64,000 bases of DNA from Siphonodentalium dalli (taxonomy: Eukaryota > Mollusca > Scaphopoda > Gadilida > Siphonodentaliidae), in NCBI GenBank assembly GCA_032622095.1, contig CP136066.1:101763319-101827318 (forward strand). Reading direction: 5' to 3'. Positions within the stretch are counted from its first letter, which is position 1. Every line of letters starts with the position of its first letter. Position numbers and translations under genes: made by a program. Positions 5,201-61,930 of the stretch are shown piece by piece. Under the pieces are notes generated by a model. That model saw only the letters and a program-made list of their open reading frames with translations, had not been told where the DNA came from and did no database searches.

Positions 5201-5571
5201 TAAAGGGGACTGCACACTAAATACGTCCATTTATGGACCCTCTCCCTTTATACTCTACAGAATATTTGCAACAAATGAATGAATTTGAGTCATGGATTAG
5301 TGCAAAAATACACCCATGTGCTCTATGAACGATACAAACAACATAGTAAATTATAAGAAAATGAGTTTATGACTCGAGTCATTTATATTCAACAGAATCG
5401 AGTCATAAACTCATTTTCATTATAATTGCTATGTTGTTTGTATCGTTCGTAGAGCACATGCGTGTATTTTGCACTGATCCATGGCTCAAATGTTTTGTTT
5501 AATATATTATGTTGAGTATAAAACGAGATGGTCCCATAAATGGCTGCATTTAGTGCACAGTCCCCCTTTAA
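5201..5571. mobile_element. 371-bp foldback element
   Basis: Left arm 5201-5377 and right arm 5398-5571 are inverted copies of each other, with a loop of about 20 bp. Paired motifs include taaaggggactgcacactaa with its reverse complement at 5551-5571, and atgagtttatgactcga with tcgagtcataaactcat at 5398-5414. Scattered mismatches show it is not freshly made. The frames crossing it are by-products of the palindrome. Confidence 0.85.
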
Positions 5572-8268: not shown

Positions 8269-8387
8269 TGTTTCCAAACCTGACCCAACTTTCCGGTTGT
8301 CGTGAATGTCTTATGCTGTTCAGATGGCAAATTTGTGCGAAAATTCAGTGCAACAGACAGCGGCCGTCTATATATATATGAAGATTT

Positions 8388-8660
8388 TCCTTAAATTTTG
8401 CCAGGCAATTTTGTCAGCTGTGCGCTGGTGCAGCATTACAAATCCTGTGCCAGTGTATTCTCTTATATATGCGAGTATCCCATAGGGAACACCTCATATA
8501 TAAGAGAACAAACTGGCTTACAAGGTCAAGGTAATTATTGTTAGGCAAATGCATTCTCTTATATATGAGACGCGACCTATGCTCGACTCGCATATATAAG
8601 AGAATGTATTGGCACAGGGTTTTCGTAAAATTTCAGGGAGCTCCAGTTATGGAGGAGAAA
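8388..8660 (-). mobile_element. Twin-hairpin element, copy A (short form)
   Basis: Hairpin 1 (about 8455-8515) pairs attctcttatatatgcgag with tcatatataagagaa. Hairpin 2 (about 8548-8610) pairs cattctcttatatatgag with ctcgcatatataagagaatg. The spacer of about 30 bp (cttacaaggtcaaggtaatt...) is the reverse complement of the spacer in copy B at 27.5 kb, so this copy is inverted relative to B. The right flank is ggcacagggttttcg ... ggagctccag. No coding capacity. Confidence 0.8.
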
Positions 8661-11916: not shown

Positions 11917-12171
11917 TTTTAACCCATTATATATACCAAACACTCATTGACGAGTAGTTATCCTATGGGAAATGTTCAGATAATAAGTTCAACAAAATAG
12001 GTCGTTTGTTGAACTTATTATCTGAACATTTCCATCAATAAATAAGACTCCTGCATTTTTATTAGCTGTCGTCTGGTTATATTATACCTCTACATACCCA
12101 AATCAATAATAGACCATTCCGATGTACACACTTTTTAACTTGCAGGGAGAATCCATATAGAATGGGCTAAT
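11917..12171 (+). mobile_element. 250-bp central-palindrome element, copy 1
   Basis: Starts TTTTAACCCATTATA with the conserved cactcattgacgagtagtta. It has a central palindrome pairing cagataataagttcaaca with tgttgaacttattatctg (about 11977-12028) and ends gagaatccatatagaatggg. Other copies are at 19.74, 38.45 and 38.99 kb. Copy 4 preserves TTAACCCTTTC/AGGGTTAA ends, so the family probably targets TTAA. Confidence 0.75.
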
Positions 12172-12828: not shown

Positions 12829-13507
12829 CGCGATGAACTCGAAAACGGCCTAGCCGATTTCGATGAAACTTGGTGTGTGGGGGTATTTTCGGTCGGGGGT
12901 GGCATGGGCCTATTAATTTGTCCGTGCAACGTGACCTTGAAATCGGATCATTTCAAGGTCAAACGCCCGAATATCACGGGATTTCGATGAAACTTGGTAT
13001 GTGGGGGTATTTTCGGCCGGGGGGGGGGGGGGGTGGCATGGGCATATTAATTTGCCCATGCGACGTGACCTTTACCTTGAAATCGGGTCATTCCAAGGTC
13101 AAACCCCCGAATATCACGGGATTTCGACGAACCTAGGGGGTACCTTCGTATGGGGAGTCTCATAAGCATATTCATTTGCCCGTACGACGTGACCTTGACC
13201 TTGAAATCGGGTCAATTCAAGGTCAAATCGCCAAATGGGATTTCGACGAAATTTTATACATAGGGTTACTTTTGTCCACTGAGTGCTTTGGACGGGTCAA
13301 ATCGTGACCCCGACATGACCTTCACCTTCAAAATGATCAATTCAAGGTCAAATCGGGTAAAACCGGATGGATTTCGACGGGCCCGTTTGTCGGGTACTTT
13401 TGTCCGGGCAGTGTTTTGGACTGGTCAAATCGTGACCCCACTTGACCTTGACCTTCAAAATGGACAATTCAATGTCAAAGCCCGGACGAAGTCGGGTCAC
13501 CTTCTAG
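12756..13507 (+). mobile_element. Non-autonomous Helitron-like element, 12.8 kb
   Basis: Likely 5' end TC at 12756 after A, followed by aattatatattttgg and gtctgtctg, a (TG)n run (12786-12828), then diverged tandem units of about 110-140 bp. The 3' end has a hairpin (cccggac-gaa-gtcggg, 13481-13496) and then CTAG-T at 13504-13508. A hairpin about 10 nt before CTRR, insertion between A and T, a GTCT microsatellite and internal minisatellites are hallmarks of DINE/HINE-type Helitrons. No Rep/helicase. The units carry TGACCTTGA and TCAAGGTCA boxes. Confidence 0.65.
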
Positions 13508-14193
13508 TTACATATATAAACACAATGTGGAGGTTTAAACGAACCATGTCCGCAACGTTTAACATAACCATAATGCATGTACGGTCAACAAACAACATCC
13601 CATGCTGTTTTGTCGAACATATCAGAATCCTTACAACCAATGAACTGGAACGATGTAAATATATCGATCAGAAAAAAATATGTTGAATGGCATATTAGTT
13701 AATAAATATATCATGTCTTGGAGTTGACAATATATACACGCGTTATGATTGGCTGCACATTGCTGTACTATTATACAGATAATGAATGGCTTGGAGTTGA
13801 CTATGCCAAAATCGTGACCCCACTTGAACTTGACCTTCAAAATGGACAATTCAAGGTCAAAGCCCGGACGAAGTCGGGTCACCTTCTAGTTACATATATA
13901 AACACAATGTGGAGGTTTAAACGAACCATGTCCGCAACGTTTAACATAACCATAATGCATGTACGGTCAACAAACAACATCCCATGCTGTTTTGTCGAAC
14001 ATATCAGAATCCTTACAACCAATGAACTGGAACGATGTAAATATATCGATCAGAAAAAAATATGTTGAACGGCATATTAGTTAATAAATATATCATGTCT
14101 TGGAGTTGACAATATATACACGCGTTATGATTGGCTGCACATTGCTGTACTATTATACAGATAATGAATGGCTTGGAGTTGACTATGCCAAAA
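13430..14193. repeat. 382-bp tandem duplication including a Helitron-like 3' end
   Basis: Two copies with period 382 bp: cccggacgaagtcggg at 13481 and 13863, CTAG at 13504 and 13886, ctatgccaaaat at 13801 and 14183. Only a handful of differences are visible, so the duplication is recent. Each unit holds about 80 bp of the element's 3' end plus about 300 bp of what was flanking DNA. The identical reading frames in both copies (ending near 13686 and 14068) are by-products. Confidence 0.92.
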
Positions 14194-14286
14194 TAGCGGT
14201 CCGAGAGTAGGAATAGTTCACGAGTCGCAGGCGAGTGGACTATTCCTCATCGAGAATAACTATTTTGGCATATTCAACGACAAGAT
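14171..14286. repeat. Palindrome with CTATTTTGGCA arms
   Basis: The outer arms tggagttgactatgccaaaa and ctattttggcatattcaacg are inverted. The inner arms aggaatagttcac and gtggactattcct pair around 14224. A similar arrangement with the same ctattttggca box is at 36.34-36.44 kb, and half of it at 46.73-46.83 kb. Probably MITE debris of one family. Confidence 0.7.
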
Positions 14287-25364: not shown

Positions 25365-26208
25365 TATATATAGAGGATCTACAACGAGGCCCCAGTTTAT
25401 AGCGGAATTTACAAAACGAGTTTAGTAAATTAGGTCTGGACCAAGCCTTTGGCAAGGTCCAGACCTAATTTACTGGACGAGTTTTGTAAATTTCGCTATA
25501 AACTGGGGACGAGTTGTAGATTCTATTTAATACAGGATCCAAAACCTCAACAAAACAAACTTAAATAAACAAATGGGACGCGAAACTAACATTATTCTAT
25601 AAGGCATGCAATGTCGTTTCACATATCTATGCGTTGTTTGCCCGCGTAAAGAAATAGTCCCAGATAAATAAAGACTCTTTGGCATATTTAATGGCGTATA
25701 TTTAATGACGTAACTTTTCAAACTCTTCATTCATTATAGTTTGTTGGAAAAATATTGGAAGCCGTAGTATTTTGAGACGTATAGCTTCTCGAATGTAAAC
25801 AGATGACAAACCGGGAGTCAAAGGTCACCTGGCACCATTTCCTGTTATTAAACGAACGTTTAATATCACAATTTATCACATAATTTGGCCATAAAAGCAG
25901 TTTCATAATTATCGGTAATAGACACGTTTAATATCAGCGCGTGCGATGACGTCACGGCGTTCTTCAAATAACTTGCGATCGCTGTAGTTTATGATTGTTG
26001 TTTTCGATGAATATTTCGCGTGGCTTCGGGTTCATTTGATTATGTGATAAAAGGTATCTCACACTCGTCCTATTTTATACGTAATTTATCAACCTCGTCC
26101 TCTAAATTCTATTTGAGCCTCGGTAAACCTCGGCTCAAATCGAATTTAGTGAACTCGGTTGATAAATTCCGTATAAAATAGAAACTCATGTGAGATCCTC
26201 TATTTATA
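25365..26208. mobile_element. 844-bp element with a hairpin at each end
   Basis: The outer ends tatatatagaggatct and agatcctctatttata are inverted. Inside each end is a large hairpin: 25378-25521 (arms of about 65 bp, paired through taaattaggtctggac and gtccagacctaattta) and 26056-26196 (arms of about 65 bp, paired through attctatttgagcctcgg and gctcaaatcgaattt). Both hairpins carry repeated GGACGAG/CTCGTCC boxes. The core (25866-26078) matches 8.05-8.27 kb. No coding capacity. Confidence 0.75.
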
Positions 26209-27395
26209 GAATGGGTTTATTGAATGGAATAAGGGTTGGTTCATGTAATAAAATCACCATTATATTACTTCTGTATCTCGCCCACACATGTGGAACCCCG
26301 TTAGTAAACGTCATATACCCCCAATCTATCAAAGCGTAATTTTTGCTTGCATGCATGGATACCATTTAAAGGCCCACTTGATGTTCGAACCACCAGATCA
26401 CATATATAGAATATATACCATATTATATACTATTTGAAAGAGGAAGCTCCAAAACATTGTTTTATCAACTTATCCGGTGTAATAAACTGTGAACATGTTG
26501 TTTTTGTTGAGTTACTGACGTGTTTGTTTAATCTGCATTGTAGTTCAACATGAATTATATTCAATGGAGGGGAATATCTCTAAATCTTAAAGTTATAGTT
26601 ATTCCCCTTCCATTGAAAATACATTTTTGAATTCTGATGCATTCTGGGTGCGTGCCAGGGGGGTTAACTTTATATGATTTCAGCTGTTTTCTATTTCTCT
26701 ATGGGCATCTTCTGAGGCACAGACGTTTCAAATGGTGATGAATTATAGTATTTTAATCATATATTATGTCATAGATTGTTATTAAAACCGTATATGATGG
26801 CACTAGAAAAAAAAACAGTGACCCGAAAATTATATGGGCCTTTAAGAGACTTCTGATCGTTTGCCCTTCTACGGCTTATACATATACGAGTTCTTAAATT
26901 ATTATGCATCAAGGACTATTCTGGGAAATGCACCCGTGAGGGTGGTTTACGCCAAACGTACTTCAGATCCATAGCCATTAGTCTTTTGCGTCACGAAGTG
27001 GTCGCGTTGAACGGCGAAATGACAAACACGACCGACCCCCGCCGGGCAGCGGAAACAATGGCGCTCATAAGGAGCGGATTGTGTCATCAACAACGAACGC
27101 CAGATCATCATCGACGTGCTTCATTGAATTAATAACTTGACATTTATCCCACTTCGACCAAGAAAAGGAGAATTTATTTCATTAACCGAGGTGGTCTGGT
27201 TTTTCGCTGCGAGCGGTTTTCTCCATTACAACGTCAGAGCCATTCTGTACTTCGTCCATACGTGCCTCGCGCCATGCATTGGATTAGACGATCTTTCTCG
27301 TTTGTCAGAATTCGGGGACCCATGTCAATCAAATGTTGAGTCCCCTGAAAATTTCACATCTTAACGTTTTCTGGCGATTTCCCAGCTCGACTATA
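26209..27395. other. Gene-free stretch, GC-richer after 26940
   Basis: No gene recognised. The last 430 bp is visibly richer in GC and free of the repeats seen elsewhere. A 75-codon frame at 27137-27364 has no recognisable domain. Confidence 0.45.
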
Positions 27396-27662
27396 AACCC
27401 TTCCATGACTGCATGGAGCTTCCTAAAATTTTGCGAAAATCCTGTGCCAATGCATTCTCTTATACATGCGAGTCTCCCATTTAGGAGCCTCGCGTATATA
27501 TAAGGGAATGCAGTTGCCTAACATTATTTACATTGACCTTGTAAGCCAGTGCATTCTCTTATATGGGAGAATCCATATGGGAGACTCCCATATATAAGAG
27601 AAAGCACTGTCACTTTATTTTTAATACTACACCAGCGCATCTCCAGCCATGAAAGGGTTAAT
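27396..27662 (+). mobile_element. Twin-hairpin element, copy B (short form)
   Basis: Left flank ggagcttcctaaaattttgc, then hairpin 1 (about 27453-27512; attctcttatacatgcgag pairs with cgcgtatatataagggaat), the 30-bp spacer gcctaacattatttacattg..., and hairpin 2 (about 27551-27604; cattctcttatatgggag pairs with ctcccatatataagagaa). The right edge is atgaaagggttaat. It has the same layout as copy A but opposite orientation. Confidence 0.82.
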
Positions 27663-27853: not shown

Positions 27854-28377
27854 TTAACCCTTTCACGACGGGAGCTGGCCCAACATTAAAGACGCTGTGC
27901 CAATGCATTCTCTTATATATGCGAGTCGACCATAGGTCGCCTCGCATATATAAGAGAATGCATTGGCCTAACCATTTTTTTCATTTTTTATCTTTTTTTC
28001 TTACATTCTATAACCATTTTTATGATTTGTTCTTATATTGTGTAACAACTAATTATTTTTTTTTATCATATTTTCTTACATTCTTTGACAATTTTATGAA
28101 TTTTTTTTATAATTTCTTCTTACATTCTTTGTCAATTTTATTTTTATTATTTTTTTTTTACATTCTTTGACAATTTTTTATCATTTTTTTCTTACATTCT
28201 TTAACAATTTTTTATAATTTTTATTATTTTTTTCTTACATTCTTTAACAATTATAAAACATAATATAAAATTTGTTAGGCCAATGCACTCTCCTATGGTC
28301 GACTCGCATATATAAGAGAATGCATTGGCACAGGGTTTTCGCAAAATTTCAGGAAGCTCCCGTCATGAAACGGTTAA
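27854..28377 (+). mobile_element. Twin-hairpin element, copy C (minisatellite form)
   Basis: TTAA at 27854-27857 and 28374-28377. Hairpin 1 (about 27908-27962) is a 26-bp stem with one mismatch and a 3-nt loop. Hairpin 2 (28285-28327) keeps its outer arm, while the inner arm is cut to cactctcctatgg. Between ggcctaac and gttaggcc lies about 300 bp of a TTTTTCTTACATTCTTTAAC minisatellite in place of the short spacer. Homology with the 43.15-43.34 kb flank continues past the right TTAA, so the true boundary may lie outside. Confidence 0.82.
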
Positions 28378-31645: not shown

Positions 31646-33947
31646 ACCTCCCAATAGCTCCGATATTTATGACTCGGGAAGCATTACTTTTGGTACTATT
31701 TGTATCACGCCATATCATCATATCCTCATATAACGGAGATCCACATGTATAATTATGTGTGCATGACAATCACAGAGAACACACCCGATCCCATTCGATC
31801 GTATCAAGGACGGTACAGACACAATCAATTATTGTAAGTGGCCTTGTGTTGTGACCACCGGCAGAGAGGTATACACCCGTTATCATTTTACACCGTTGAT
31901 TGTTGACGACCAGCCACGACACAGCACGAGCTCGTCGGTATACAGCTGGCAAAAATGCCAGCTAACAAAACAAAACAAAACAACCTTTGCAGCTGGCATT
32001 TTTGCAGTTTGCAGTGCAATATTGCCAGCGTATGAACGTACCCTTTGTGCTCAGGCACTTTGCCAACCTGGGGAATGTTATCATTCTACTAACATCACTG
32101 AAAATTTCCAAAAAAATCTACCACATCACTTCATAGAGAACATCGTCTGAACTACTCCAAATTGTAAATATTTACATCTCGATTCGGGGCGCAACTATCG
32201 GCTATAATTAAACAAAAATGATTTCGCCATCGAGAGTCATTGCATTTAACTAATATATAAGAATGACGTTGTGTATCATCCATTTGGATTAATATTCGTA
32301 ACAAATAACTACTTTTAGAAAGATTATTCTTAATTTCTATTTGATCACTCTGCCCGGTGTCTGCCGGAGTGTTTCCATCACTTTAATCAAGGAAGACTGT
32401 TCAGAAAAACTGCATTTCAAGAAATCGTTTAATGCTTTAGAATTTTTGTTTTCGGAGATTTATATATATGCTTAAAGACATATTATGGACTTGTTATGGA
32501 CTTTTTCGGGTGCGAGAAATTGATAAGTTAGTGCTCAGGCACTTTGCCAACCTGGGGAATGTTATCATTCTACAAACATCACTAAAAATTTCCAAAAAAA
32601 TCTACCACACCACTTCATAGAGAACATCGTCTGAACTACTCCAAATTGTAAATATTTACATCTCGATTCGGGGCGCAACTATCGGCTATAATTAAACAAA
32701 AATGATTTCGCCATCGAGAGTCATTGCATTTAACTAATATATAAGAATGACGTTGTGTATCATCCATTTGGATTAATATTTGTAACAAATAACTACTTTG
32801 AGAAAGATTATTCTTAATTTCTATTTGATCGCTCTGCCCGGTGTCTGCCGGAGTGTTTCACATCACTTTAATCAAGGAAGACTGTTCAGAAAAACTGCAT
32901 TTCAAGAAATCGTTTAATGCTTTAGAATTTTAGTTTTCGGAGATTTATATATATGCTTAAAGACATATTATGGACTTGTTATGGACTTTTTCGGGTGCGA
33001 GAAATTGATAAGTTAGTGCTCAGGCACTTTGCCAACCTGGGGAATGTTATCATTCTACAAACATCAATGAAAATTTCCAAAAAAATCTACCACATCACTT
33101 CATAGAGAACATCGTCTGAACTACTCCAAATTGTAAATATTTACATCTCGATTATGGGCGCAACTATCGGCTATAATTAAACAAAAATGATTTCGCCATC
33201 GAGAGTCATTGCATTTAACTAATATATAAGAATGACGTTGTGTATCATCCATTTGGATTAATATTTGTAACAAATAACTACTTTGAGAAATATTATTCTT
33301 AATTTCTATTTGATCACTCTGCCCGGTGTCTGCCGGAGTGTTTCACATCACTTTAATCAAGGAAGACCGTTCAGAAAAACTGCATTTCAAGAAATCGTTT
33401 AATGCTTTAGAATTTTTGTTTTCGGAGATTTATATAAATGCTTAAAGACATATTATGGACTTGTTATGGACTTTTTCGGGTGCGAGAAATTGATAAGTTA
33501 GTGCTCAGGCACTTTGCCAACCTGGGGAATGTTATCATTCTACTAACATCACTGAAAATTTCCAAAAAAATATATACCACACCACTTCATAGAGAACATC
33601 GTCTGAACTACTCCAAATTGTAAATATTTACATCTCGATTCGGGGCGCAACTATCGGCTATAATTAAACAAAAAATGATTTCGCCATCGAGAGTCATTGC
33701 ATTTAACTAATATATAAGAATGACGTTGTGTATCATCCATTTAGATTAATATTCGTAACAAATAACTACTTTGAGAAAGATTATTCTTAATTTCTATTTG
33801 ATCACTCTGCCCGGTGTCTGTCGGAGTGTTTCACATCACTTTAATCAAGGAAGACTGTTCAGAAAAACTGCATTTCAAGATCACCAAACAACTTTCCTTT
33901 TTAGGGCCACCACATCTTTCCAAAGATGTACTTCTTCCATTTTGCTA

Positions 33948-35013: not shown

Positions 35014-35787
35014 TATAATTAATATAACATCCCTCATCCAATAATCTCCAAATTACATATCTAATTTCAATCCTAGTTACACGTCACGCCGCCCCTCATC
35101 ATTTGCCAATTGTACACCCCTTTTTTTGCTGCTGCTGCAACTGTTCAATTTCTTTAAAAATTATTGAAAAAATGGCCCTCCCGCCCGCCGACATTTACCT
35201 CTGATTTTTTTTTTGATCATCGGTCCGCACTAGAATTGAGCACACGTCCCTATATAATACACCTATTTAAACCGAGTATACACGGTGGTGTAATAGATCA
35301 ACCGTCAATTTAACTGTTTAGGTAGCATATTTCCAAGTATACGTTATCACGACAAATCCCTGCTGATCTGTTATTAATGAACTAAACAATTAACATGTCA
35401 ACACACTCTGGCCCGCCAATGCTACAGTGTATAAACGTAACGGGGCAAATATGCACATTATATTGGCAGCTAACGAGAACATTCATCGCCAGCAATCTGC
35501 TCACCCCTTTTAGCCGATACGATAGAAACTAAACGATTTGTTACTTCTAATTACCCGTACTTAATTACACTACTTGCGTGTTAATAAAGTACGACCCCAT
35601 TACCACTAAAGGTGAAACATGGGATTTAGAACATTAATATTCACTCTTACATAGTTTCCACATTTAAGGTTCGTCTTGTGTAATCGAATGTCAGTTGTAA
35701 CGTTGTGAAACTGCAACCGAACTGAATTATTCTATGCTAAATAGTTCATGGCTGACCTGATGCATGCATCTTAGTTTTCTTGTAAAA
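35014..35787. other. Gene-free stretch, largely repeat-free
   Basis: Apart from poly-T runs near 35120-35215, this shows none of the window's repeats. It contains several TAATTA-type boxes between 35370 and 35600 (gaactaaacaattaac, cttctaattacccgtactta). It might be conserved non-coding sequence; that is only a suspicion. Confidence 0.35.
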
Positions 35788-35930
35788 TGTTGTGTACAGA
35801 ATGTGTTTTTCTTGTACGAGTCCAGGTTGTGGTGAAAAGTCATATTGGACGAGACACGCAGTGTCGCGTCCAATACGATTTTTCACCACAACCTGGACGA
35901 GTACAAGAAAAACTCATACTGTACACAACA
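35788..35930. repeat. 143-bp near-perfect palindrome
   Basis: tgttgtgtacag at the left pairs with ctgtacacaaca at the right. The two arms (about 70 bp each) meet at a 3-nt centre within gacacgcagtgtc (about 35859). Boxes cttgtacgagtccaggttgt and acaacctggacgagtacaag are exact partners. It shares the GGACGAG/CTCGTCC motif with both hairpins of the 25.4-26.2 kb element. It would extrude as a cruciform. Confidence 0.9.
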
Positions 35931-36229
35931 TAGTATAATGACATTTTTATTATCCATCTGTATGTTTATCCAAATTTTGGGAATAAATATTTTGTGGTTA
36001 TTTTTGGTATTTGTCGGCGCTTAATTCTCTATTAGTATAAAAGCCTATATTTTGATCATCAGAAAGCATGATTTGGAACAGTAAACACGGAAGTGAAAAA
36101 AAACTCAATGCGGAAGTGAAACGTCTGCTAAATCCAACAGTGTTGACCACGCATCACAATTGCACCTATTCATTTCGCAATAGAGTTAATTCGTGACGTC
36201 ACAGAGACCCGATAAAAAAGTGATATTGC

Positions 36230-36966: not shown

Positions 36967-38228
36967 GAGATTACTTTCAAATTACCTCCCCGGAATAGTG
37001 GCATGCTAAAAATAGATTTCTGGATTTCCCAAGCGATAGTTGGTATGCTACATTTTAAGGAAGCCCACTATCGTGTTGTGGATGACACTATCGGTACTAT
37101 TGAATGTCAAGCAGCCAATCAAAAGCATGGTTTAGGATTAGATAGGCACGTGAGATAAAATATCATGAAATAGTGTGGGTATATTCACATGGAATCGGGC
37201 TCAAATTACGGAAATTATCAGAGCCCCTCTGCCATGGCGTTTAGATGGCAATGACCGTTGATGAAGTTCGTGCTTTAAATTTGGGTATGGCGTATGAGTA
37301 TGTATGTGGATATGGCATTGCGGTGTGGGTAAGTATTCCTTCGCCCTAGCCCCCCTCCAGTCACACACTGTACGGGGAACATATGAGATTACTTTCAAAT
37401 TACCTCCCCGGAATAGTGGCATGCTAAAACTAAATTTCTGGATTTCCCAAGCGATAGTTGGTATGCTAAATTTTAAGGAAGCCCACTATCGTGTTGTGGA
37501 CGAAACTATCGGTAATATTGAATGTCAAGCAGCCAATCAAAAGCATGGTTTAGGCTTAGGTAGTCACGTGAGATAAAATATCATGAAATAGTGTGGGTAT
37601 ATTCACATGGAATCGGGCTCAAATTACGGAAATTATCAGAGCCCCTCTGCCATGGCGTTTAGATGGCAATGACCGTTGATGAAGTTCGTGCTTTAAATTT
37701 GGGTATGGCGTATGAGTATGTATGTGCCTATGTGGATATGGCATTGCGGTGTGGGTAAGTATTCCTTCGCCCTAGCCCCCCTCCAGGCACACACTGTACG
37801 GGGAACATATGAGATTACTTTCAAATTACCTCCCAGGAATAGTGGCATGCTAAAAATAAATTTCTGGAATTCCCAAGCGATAGTTGGTATGCTAAATTTT
37901 AAGGAAGCCAACTATCGTGTTGTGGACGAAACTATCGGTAATATTGAATGTCAAGCAGCCAATCAAAAGCATGGTTTAGGCTTAGGTAGTCACGTGAGAT
38001 AAAATATCATGAAATAGTGTGGGTATATTCACATGGAATCGGGCTCAAATTACGGAAATTATCAGAGCCCCTCTGCCATGGCGTTTAGATGGCAATGACC
38101 GTTGATGAAGTTCGTGCTTTAAATTTGGGTATGGCGTATGAGTATGTATGTGGATATGGCATTGCGGTGTGGTTAAGTATTACTTCGCCCTAGCCCCCTC
38201 CAGTCACACACTGTACGGGGAACATATG
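36967..38228 (+). repeat. Three-unit tandem array of about 420 bp
   Basis: Units begin with gagattactttcaaattacc at 36967, 37385 and 37811 (418 and 426 bp apart; the longer one has an extra tatgtgcc). Each carries ttagatggcaatgaccgttg and cacacactgtacggggaaca. An open frame of 70-96 codons is kept in each unit on the plus strand and a 72-73-codon frame on the minus strand. The differences between units are mostly amino-acid-changing, which argues against coding constraint. Confidence 0.92.
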
Positions 38229-38445
38229 ACCCCATGAAGAAAACAACTCCCTTGTCAGACCCATACATAAAGCTATCTCACACGACCTACGTGGTTGATT
38301 TACCTATTTTGGTTAACTTTGGTTCAATTAGGACTGTGTTTTAATTGTAACGCTCTATACAGGACGCTATTATGAGTAACCTTATTTTCGTGAATAAATC
38401 TTACCCGACAAGTCTAATTGTTTGACAACAAAACGTACTTTATAA

Positions 38446-38985: not shown

Positions 38986-39240
38986 TTTTAACCCTTTCTA
39001 TACTATAAATGGATTCTCCCATCAAGTTAAAAAAAAGTGTCATTGGAATGATCAATTATTTATTTGGAGGGATGTTCATGTAATATAAGCAGACGACAGA
39101 TACTACAAGAAAGAGTCCTATTTATTGGAGGGAATATATTCAGATAATAAGTTCAACAAACGTTTGTTGAACATATTATCTGAATATTTTCTAATGTATA
39201 ACTACTCGTCAATGAGTATTCAGTATAGACAGGGTTAAGG
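38986..39240 (-). mobile_element. 250-bp central-palindrome element, copy 4 (best preserved)
   Basis: The ends TTAACCCTTTCTATACTA and tagacAGGGTTAA are inverted, with TTAA outermost on both sides. The centre pairs cagataataagttcaacaaa with tttgttgaacatattatctg. It runs in the opposite orientation to copies 1-3. TTAACCC-type ends resemble piggyBac-class termini. Confidence 0.85.
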
Positions 39241-42639: not shown

Positions 42640-43154
42640 TATATTTCACGACGGAAGCTGCGCTGGCGCAACATTAAAAACCCTGTGACAATGCATTCTC
42701 TTATATATGCGAGGCGACCTATGGCCTAACAATTTTTTATCATTATTTATCAATTTTTCCTACATTTTTAATAATTTTTATCATTTTATATAACTTGTTC
42801 TTACATTCATTAACATTTTTTATCATTTTTTCTTACATATTATAACATTTTTTATCATTTTTTTCTTATATTCATTAACAATTTTATCATTTTGTATAAT
42901 TTTTTCTTACATTCTTTAACAATTTTATCAATTTTTATGATTTATTTCTTATATTCTTTCTTTAACATATTTTTATATCTTTTTTTCATTTTTTCTACAT
43001 TTTTTTCTACATTCTTTAACAATTATAAAAAATTACATAAAATTGATTGGGCCAATGCGACCTATGGTCGACTCGCATATATATATATATACGAGAATGC
43101 ATTGGCACAGGGTTTTCGCAAAAATTCAGGAAGCTCCAGTCATGGATGGGTTAA
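42640..43154 (+). mobile_element. Twin-hairpin element, copy D (minisatellite form, both hairpins halved)
   Basis: Left cacgacggaagctgcg and cattctcttatatatgcgag-gcgacctatgg, then directly cctaac: the inner arm of hairpin 1 is missing. A TTTTTCTTACATTCTTTAAC minisatellite follows (about 42720-43040). Hairpin 2 starts gcgacctatggtcgactcgc and keeps only its outer arm, with an expanded (TA)n. Right edge gatgggTTAA (43151-43154). Confidence 0.8.
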
Positions 43155-48361: not shown

Positions 48362-48735
48362 CTCTTTAACATATCCTCGCGCAAATACGCACACAATCGT
48401 CTTATAATGTGAAATAGGTACGTATAGTGTGATTATTTGATTCTGAAATAAAAAGATAATGGACTCATCGCCGTTATTTCATTTTACGGACCGCAGTGAA
48501 AACACATGTTAAAGAGCGCACACCTGAACATTTGTGAGCTGACTTGTTTGTATCATTGTCCGCGCATAACCTGCTTAGAATCGCCTCATTAAGAGTCGGT
48601 AATGTGACAAAAACGCTCTCATTTTCAGCACAGTAACGACTCAAAATGAGGCGGTTCTAAGCAGATTATATACCTAAAACAAGTTCTTTATAAGCAGACA
48701 ATGTGCATATATTCGGGAGAACAGGCTGAGCTGTT
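48362..48735 (+). mobile_element. About 370-bp stem-loop MITE, copy 1
   Basis: Begins cgcgcaaatacgcacacaat, has acatgttaaagagcgcacac, then a stem of about 45 bp. ctgcttagaatcgcctcatt ... agtcggtaatgtgac faces cagtaacgactcaaaatgag ... ttctaagcag, around an aacgctctcattttc loop. It ends gggagaacaggctg. Copies are at 58.53 kb (minus) and 61.57 kb. Comparing its flanks with 27.75-27.80 kb shows that locus without the insertion. Confidence 0.8.
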
Positions 48736-49097
48736 AGACTAATTTACATCCCAACAACTCATCTCGGATACTGAAAAACCCACGCAGACAAGAGCTCTTT
48801 CCATCAATTTATCACATTATTATAATCAATAAATTTGAAAAATGATCAAGGAAATATGGGTTGATACAAAAATCGGACTTGGCACTGAAAGGGTTAATAC
48901 ATACTTTCAGAAAATTGACAGTTGACTGCATGCATATGGAGTTGTTCGTCAGGATGGTGCCCGTGCAGCTCGGGGTCGTGATAGTTTATGTGACTCATGG
49001 TTTGATATGTGACTTGCTGTATGATATATACATAACCTCATCTTACTTTGTACAATGAGTATATATAGATAACATCAATAGAAGACAATTTCGAGGT
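48736..49097. repeat. Flank resembling 27.78-27.84 kb
   Basis: gttagactaatttacatccc and aacaactcatctcggatact resemble ttagactaatgagctatcac and aacaactcatatcgcacact at 27.79-27.83 kb. aaagggttaatacat (48886) resembles the right edge of twin-hairpin copy B. Otherwise no gene. Confidence 0.5.
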
Positions 49098-58525: not shown

Positions 58526-58889
58526 CAGACTGTTCTCCCGAAAATACTCAAATTATCTGCTTATATTAAAACTTATTTTAGGCAGTAATCTGCTTAGAAT
58601 CGGCTCATTTTGAGTCGACAATGTGCTGGAAATGAGAGCGTTTTAGTCACATTATCAACTCATAAGGAGGCGATTCTACGCAGATTATGTGCGGACAATG
58701 ACACAAATAAGCTAACTCACGACTTTTCAGATGTACGCTCTTTAACATGTGTTTTGAATGTGGCCCGCGCCGTAAAACAAAATAACGGGCATGACTCCAT
58801 TATCAAATACAGAATAAAATAACCACATTATGCACCTATTTCACTCTATAGGTCGATTATGTGCGTATTTGTGTAAGGATATGTTGAAC
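58526..58889 (-). mobile_element. About 370-bp stem-loop MITE, copy 2
   Basis: The reverse orientation of the 48.4 kb element: cagactgttctcccg at the left, ctgcttagaatcggctcatt facing aaggaggcgattctacgcag, gtacgctctttaacatgtgt, and ttatgtgcgtatttgtgtaa with ggatatgttgaac at the right. Confidence 0.82.
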
Positions 58890-60700: not shown

Positions 60701-61091
60701 GCGATCATTGTAATTTTTGCCAGGCGGACACAAATGAAATTCCTTCTTAAAAAACGTCCTCTTCTGAAATGATAAAATTGTTAAAGAATGTAAGAAAACA
60801 ATTATAAAATTGTTAAAGAATGTAAGAAAGAATAATAATAATAAAAAAATTGTTAAAGGATGTGAGACAAAAATGATAAAAAAAAGAGAAAAAATTGTCT
60901 TAAAAACGTCCCCTTCTGACAATGATAAAATTGTTAAAGAATGTAAGAAAAAAATTGTAAAAAATTACAAATTTTATGAAAAAATGATGAAAAATGAAAA
61001 ACAATATTAAAGAATGTAAGAACAATTGATACAAAAATAGAAAGAAAATGTTAGGTCAATGCATTCTCTTATATATGCGAGGCGACCTATG
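60700..61091 (-). mobile_element. Twin-hairpin element, copy E (truncated, minisatellite form)
   Basis: The minisatellite gttaaagaatgtaagaaaaa runs from about 60778 to 61030. It is followed by gttaggtcaatgcattctct and tatatatgcgaggcgaccta, i.e. one arm of a hairpin in inverted orientation. The element stops in the middle of that hairpin at about 61091, where another foldback begins. aaacgtccYcttctgaRatg occurs twice in the minisatellite (about 60753 and 60903). Confidence 0.75.
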
Positions 61092-61300
61092 TCTGAAACC
61101 TGGTTAATAGCAAAGTTTGGTCACATATAGCTTACGCTAATGCGAAAATCCCACATAATAGTCATAAGAAAATACAAAAAAATATCTGGAATCTTTAACC
61201 CGGAATCCGGATAAATTTCTTATGACTATTATGTGGGACTTTCGCATTAGCGTACGCTATATGTGACTAACCATTGCTATTGACCAGGTTGCAGACATAT
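61092..61300. mobile_element. 209-bp foldback related to the 56-58 kb element
   Basis: Arms of about 80 bp: gtcacatatagcttacgcta, then atgcgaaaatcccacataat, face attatgtgggactttcgcat and tagcgtacgctatatgtgac. The loop holds aacccggaatccggat. The arm motifs cgaaaatcccacataatagt and ccggaatccggat are also found in the 56-58 kb arms, so the two are related. Insertion or rearrangement at this point removed the rest of twin-hairpin copy E. Confidence 0.8.
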
Positions 61301-61567: not shown

Positions 61568-61930
61568 CTTGCTCAAATACGCACATATAATCGACATATA
61601 ATGTGAAATAGGTACATAATGTGATTATTTGATTTTTAAATAAGCAGCAGATAATGGATCATACACGTTATTTCGTTTTACGGCGCGGGCCACGGTAAAA
61701 ACACATGTTAAAGAGCGTGAATCTGAACAATCGTGAGTTTGCTTATATGTGTCATTGTGCGCACATAAACTGCTTCGAATCGCCTCGTTGTGAATCGATA
61801 ATTTGACTAAAACGCTATCATTTTCAGCACACAATCGACTCAAAATGAGGCGATTCTCAGCAGTTTATCAACCTAAAACAAGTATATTTTAAATAGATAA
61901 TATGCGGAAATTTGGGAGAACAGTCTGAAT
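61568..61930 (+). mobile_element. About 370-bp stem-loop MITE, copy 3
   Basis: gctcaaatacgcacatataa, acatgttaaagagcgtgaat, ctgcttcgaatcgcctcgtt facing aaaatgaggcgattctcagc, and gggagaacagtctg match copies 1 and 2 in order. Confidence 0.82.

Follow-up and report, generated by a model that had tools for sequence, protein, structure and literature searches.

Long palindromes near the ends of two candidate TTAA mini-transposon families in Siphonodentalium dalli

Positions 27854-28377 of the window, that is the whole 64,000-nt stretch of Siphonodentalium dalli contig CP136066.1 analysed here, hold a complete 524-bp element on the plus strand (copy C), with TTAA at both ends and terminal-repeat matches at 27854-27874 (+) and 28357-28377 (-). 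These are exactly the bounds, TTAA included, that an earlier sequence-only reading of the window had given. The five related copies it had proposed are likewise real, as all 12 matches to TTCTCTTATATATGCGAG found in the window at ≤3 mismatches fall inside copies A-E (expected, 0.09). Copy B (27394-27661, minus strand, 268 bp) carries TTAA at one end and TAAA at the other; copy A (8421-8653, plus strand), its span being that of its matches to B, C and D, has no intact TTAA ends; and copy D (42641-43154, plus strand) combines an intact TTAACCC right end with a mutated left end and an approximate left boundary. Copy E (60745-61089, minus strand) is a fragment, comprising the tandem repeat and the inner half of the left palindrome. 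Copy B and fragment E are both inverted with respect to A, C and D. An nhmmer search with the end alignments of A-D found no sixth copy in the window, the sole extra row being 8330-8351 (E 0.66).

The window is AT-rich, with a GC content of 0.345-0.403 in 4-kb steps. No gene was found in it: there are ten stop-to-stop open reading frames of at least 130 aa, the 10 frames compared with Pfam gave no match above cut-off, and there was no Rfam match. Tandem arrays at 32047-33880, 36967-38229 and 13427-14194 have units of 485, 426 and 382 bp, respectively, with 96-99% matches.

Element ends of the TTAACCC type, which the earlier reading had described, were confirmed: TTAACCCTTTCATGACNGGAG matches only at ends, with four matches at ≤3 mismatches and 4/4 of these at element ends (one in B, both in C and one in D; expected, 0.00), although the right end of C reads TTAACCG. 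An inverted terminal repeat of ~13 bp with a CCC start is present (CCG at C-right), and the terminal repeat common to both ends, taken by eye from the alignment, is about CCCTTTCATGACTGGAGCT. Exact TTAA adjoins this repeat at 4/8 ends of A-D, the remaining ends being mutated or unrecognisable; TTAA at both ends, as a target duplication would leave, occurs in C and in P2, a member of the second family described below. In element orientation, the left end runs from TTAA through a terminal repeat of ~19 bp (CCCTTTCACGACGGGAGCT in C) and a left-specific segment (GCGCTGGCGCAACATTAAA in D) to AACCCTGT (in D; diverged in other copies) and then to the palindrome. At the right end, a like terminal repeat is followed by a right-specific segment (TCCTGAAATTTTGCGA in C), by AAACCCTGT and again by a palindrome, so that the segments between terminal repeat and palindrome, each of about 15-20 bp, differ between the left and right ends. 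Counting the bases from TTAA to the palindrome gave 41 for C-left, 44 for both C-right and D-right, 46 for B-left and 48 for B-right, the last counted from the mutated TAAA; the set leaves out A (both ends) and D-left, which have no usable TTAA, and E, which has no end. Left and right spacing differ by just 2-3 bp in B and C, in contrast to 3 versus 31 nt in Ifp2. Elsewhere in the window, TTAACCCTTTCAGTGCC at 48881-48897 (minus strand) resembles the terminal repeat with 3 mismatches, and no element was definable around the TTAACCC end at 48897.

The best hairpin had been given a 26-bp stem and a 3-nt loop; the loop (ATA) stands, but the structure is longer. This C-left palindrome (27899-27967, plus strand, 69 bp) has 33-bp arms with one mismatch, begins 41 bp inside TTAA, and scores 29, compared with a maximum of 13 when the window was dinucleotide-shuffled 20 times. 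Complete palindromes are found at five of the nine ends seen (two each in A-D, one in E): at the left end of C, at both ends of A (left, 8449-8517; right, 8545-8613; plus strand, 69 nt each) and at both ends of B (right-type, 27446-27515, 70 nt; left-type, 27544-27612, 69 nt; minus strand). Those of A and B are imperfect, with 28 matched arm positions in A-left, 27 in A-right and 26 in each of B-left and B-right. At C-right, D-left and D-right the palindrome is broken near its axis, with the loss of most of its inner arm, and E retains half. The C-right palindrome (28292-28330, minus strand) keeps its outer arm and axis and has lost ~18 nt of the inner arm; the D-right remnant (43055-43107, minus strand) keeps the axis and an outer arm with a TA expansion, the inner arm being lost; and the D-left half-palindrome (42689-42726, plus strand), broken near the axis, has its core orientation flipped. 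The claim that all five copies share two separate hairpins does not hold, since twin complete hairpins occur in A and B alone. Copies with one or no intact hairpin, which the sequence-only reading had itself named as counter-evidence, exist in C, D and E.

Between copies, the outer arms vary less than the inner ones (among the five complete palindromes, the 10 pairs total 47 mismatches and 8 gap columns in the outer arms and 59 and 50 in the inner), and the truncated palindromes of C and D keep the arm at the outer place in 3/3 cases. This is a small number and, given the flipped core of D-left, the arm retained there could be the inner one turned round. Read off the alignment, C-right, D-left and D-right show one break each, within about 6 nt of the axis. 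Human palindromic AT-rich repeats are described as breaking near the axis likewise (PMC4255720). We did not accept near-axis breakage as proof of cruciform extrusion, since three events are few and the cause in E is another mini-element. The latter (61088-61299, unstranded), itself a palindrome whose arms measure 84 nt and which is flanked by TA, starts at the axis of E's palindrome, and copy E does not visibly resume past it; it carries TTAACCCGGAATCCGG in its middle. Compensatory change preserving the pairing was likewise considered and is suggestive only, as 4/120 arm permutations (native included) do as well, and gene conversion within the palindrome would also give the observed arm pairing.

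The middle of the element differs among copies. An AT-rich tandem repeat occupies 27985-28256 (plus strand) in C, with a unit of about 32-44 bp and a TTCTTACATTCTTT-like core, and 42727-43017 (plus strand) in D. It had been correctly recognised in C, D and E, but not the two complete hairpins said to flank it (one in C, none in D, half of one in E), because the palindromes there are broken or halved. That the spacer of A and B equals one repeat unit of C, D and E is unproven, at least 58/300 shuffles scoring as well in 5/6 comparisons; for B versus C alone, 5/300 shuffles were as good. The tandem repeat would be a passive expansion of the middle, not read by the transposase.

The window contains a second TTAA family, comprising four copies of 222-283 bp (P1-P4). 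P1 (11919-12170, plus strand, 252 bp, TTAACCC...GGGCTAA) has a palindrome at 11968-12033 (plus strand) with 29-bp arms and the 8-nt loop ATAGGTCG, 45 bp inside TTAA. P2 (38988-39238, minus strand, 251 bp, TTAACCC at both ends) has one at 39132-39191 (minus strand) with 30-bp arms and no loop, 43 bp inside TTAA. The palindromes of P3 (19740-20022, plus strand, 283 bp) and P4 (38443-38664, plus strand, 222 bp) are degenerate. Exact TTAACCC is found at both ends of P2 and at the left end only of P1, both ends being mutated in P3 and P4. Each element has a single palindrome, which lies near the left end and has decayed in P3 and P4 but is complete in P1 and P2 (60-66 bp); of the 17 window palindromes that were scored, none falls at the right end of this family.

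The two families place their palindromes at like distances from TTAA, 43-45 bp in the second and 41-48 bp in the first, and their arms are not alike beyond chance, the arm score being reached by 591/1000 shuffles. A gapless palindrome lies 38-50 bp inside at 3/12 exact TTAACCC sites (random mean, 0.04; 0/20000 placements reach 3), a result that, together with the axis 8-mer considered next, overstates the case because both interval and 8-mer were picked after seeing the data. Three of the other nine sites belong to the two families, the palindrome being gapped or broken (27661 and 43154) or absent at that end (38988), and six have none; most of the 17 scored palindromes do not adjoin TTAACCC. 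The 8-mer ATAGGTCG sits at palindrome axes at 7/9 of its sites in the window (expected, 1.11), two of them in the second family and five in the first, where they come from related copies. Counted from the first base of TTAA, it starts at 78 in both C-left and P1, and at 89 in D-right, 93 in P4 and 87 in P3 (one mismatch), whereas P2, both B ends, A-left and C-right have an altered form of it or none. Taken alone, the axis 8-mer is weak, with 67/2000 shuffles sharing at least 8 bases at an offset of ≤5, and 108/400 anywhere. The first 17 bases of the two families are loosely alike. With ≤3 mismatches allowed, an end pattern of this length drawn from both, TTAACCCTTTCWTKACT, matches 12 times, of which 11 fall on ends of the two families and 1 elsewhere (expected, 0.99); none of the matches is to P1, either A end or D-left. 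RNA fold energy at five of the 12 TTAACCC sites was below the 5% point (-36.4) of 300 random stretches, these being four family ends and one non-family site (26667); D-right (-27.8) and the P2 right end (-20.4) were not low. We did not find 60-70-bp palindromes at a fixed distance in two arm-unrelated families in open-licence papers, and a repeat-library entry for these elements may exist.

In our reading, the five-copy family is probably a piggyBac-like, non-autonomous transposon, and a transposase provided in trans would bind its palindromes as subterminal sites; we assign this reading a probability of roughly 0.6. The assignment is based on the TTAA target, the CC...GG ends starting CCCTTT, the short length and the lack of a gene. 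Counting against it, a transposase gene was not found in the window (ORF list; Pfam search of 10 ORFs, nothing above cut-off). The piggyBac-like elements, or pbles, treated in PMC12324416 (Ifp2, Tcr-pble, human MER75, MER85 and Looper) share with our family a TTAA target, a short terminal repeat and, in each end, inverted repeats in an inner or subterminal position, with TTAACCC ends common to Ifp2 and Tcr-pble as they are here. Further precedents for such a terminal repeat are CCCTTGTATGGTGTTC in a cichlid piggyBac and TTAACCCTAG in piggyBac; a subterminal repeat of 25 bp is described for a moth element (PMC4273485). Since published piggyBac-like elements carry subterminal palindromic repeats at both ends (PMC12324416), the sequence-only reading went too far in stating that it knew of no described family with this plan. 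As described in PMC11707139, piggyBat and piggyBac ends also resemble ours in having a terminal motif, a palindrome further in and asymmetric ends. The difference is one of scale: the inner-repeat search in PMC12324416 was limited to arms 5-15 nt long separated by spacers of 2-10, compared with arms of ~29-33 bp here, and the piggyBat and piggyBac palindromes given in PMC11707139 measure 14-19 bp and lie nearer the tip, unlike the single ~70-bp dyad here. Because subterminal repeats and palindromes of the piggyBac type are already published, we read the large palindromes as an enlarged version of a known end design.

TTAA is also the target of Sola3, and a Kolobok- or Sola3-type element must be weighed against a piggyBac-like one. 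Kolobok elements share the TTAA target and have been reported from animals, molluscs among them (PMC9587614). Xmix/T2-MITE of Xenopus, a short TTAA element placed in Kolobok, resembles our family in the amplification of an internal segment (PMC6004289), a further precedent for part of the plan. However, Kolobok termini are given as 5'-RR...YY-3' (PMC9587614), whereas those here are 5'-CC...GG-3'; the Xmix/T2-MITE ends are of Kolobok type (AGGRR) and the word 'palindrome' has 0 occurrences in the main text of that report (PMC6004289), again unlike the present elements. We consider a Kolobok or Sola3 origin most improbable. In searches outside the window, ATTCTCTTATATATGCGAG was not found in viral contigs or prokaryote genome contigs, a 25-mer from the right end had 0 matches in viral contigs, copy C had no match among plasmids, and six short palindrome or end sequences had no text match in papers.

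In the piggyBac-like reading, a related transposase would cut at TTAA, its core contacting the terminal repeat and its paired C-terminal domains the more internal dyad, in the arrangement that has been solved for piggyBac and piggyBat. For those two, the tip motif is described as held mainly by the transposase core and the neighbouring palindrome by the two C-terminal domains (PMC11707139). The outer arm and axis would then do the work, and the inner arm would be a mirror copy that can be spared; breaks close to the axis, of the kind that other long palindromes undergo, would lead to its loss. The earlier suggestion, a transposon whose hairpins are recognised by the transposase, is borne out in outline by the TTAA-CCC ends, the asymmetric subterminal segments and the same placement of the second family's palindrome. 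Against docking stand the length of the palindromes, several times that of described piggyBac-family dyads, and their presence in one end only of the second family; and as D lacks a complete palindrome, a complete one may not be needed. According to PMC11707139, activity can be restrained by subterminal sequences.

A different account keeps the TTAA mini-transposon and takes the palindromes to be functionless and decaying, having arisen by snap-back copying or from a palindromic mini-element inserted into the ancestor's ends. Palindromes and palindromic mini-elements are otherwise common in the window, deletions have broken those of C-right, D-left and D-right, another element interrupts that of E, and within-copy arm pairing beats arm swaps weakly (4/120 permutations, native included, equal or better). 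A passive origin does not, however, predict a second family with unrelated arms in which the palindrome lies at a like distance from TTAA, with the axis 8-mer in two copies, and we regard it as possible but rather unlikely. The same second-family evidence, post hoc as its figures are, favours a putative DNA-level docking site for transposase over a small-RNA precursor, the weaker of the two functions suggested by the sequence-only reading. In RNA form, C-left folds at -54.3 kcal/mol with its 33-base arms paired. Such a near-perfect 33-bp stem suits an siRNA better than a microRNA. Made1 elements, of mariner type with a TA target, each form a single hairpin in their entirety, unlike the hairpins here, which sit inside element ends. 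Like the present family in its probable nature, Made1 is a short non-autonomous DNA transposon; it gives RNA hairpins, and the human mir-548 microRNA family is described as deriving from Made1 mini-elements (PMC1784062). Yet no Rfam 15 match at gathering score was obtained anywhere in the window, near-perfect arms occur in just one of the five complete palindromes, and the inner arm, which would make up half of a precursor, is worse conserved and lost in 3/8 ends of A-D; processing of the palindromes as microRNA or siRNA precursors is accordingly very unlikely.

Returning to the transposase-binding reading, a more specific version holds that the TTAA lineage has ends read by shape, the signal being a long dyad that extrudes ~45 bp from the end to form a cruciform. 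Arm sequence would then be free to change between families, with palindromic form, position and axis fixed. For the subterminal (STIR) and inner (IIR) inverted repeats of pbles, a capacity to fold into hairpins or cruciforms has been suggested in PMC12324416, which also proposes structure-based binding for the domesticated transposase PGBD5, although B-form probes of Ifp2 and MER75 ends gave no shift there. We consider shape reading unlikely for the present elements. For the question whether dyads in piggyBac-type ends act through their sequence or as hairpins or cruciforms, two families with different 60-70-bp palindromes at a single fixed distance would offer a natural test; the finding itself concerns repeat anatomy.

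Several further palindromes were recorded in the window. Those at 48566-48669, 58586-58687 and 61765-61868 have similar starts (CTGCTTAGAATCG or close) and look like copies of another hairpin element. Three long palindromes, at 35780-35938, 25369-25529 and 5305-5470, have 76-79-nt arms and spacers of 3-14 nt and each differ in sequence; the one at 25369-25529 has a diverged relative at 26063-26203.
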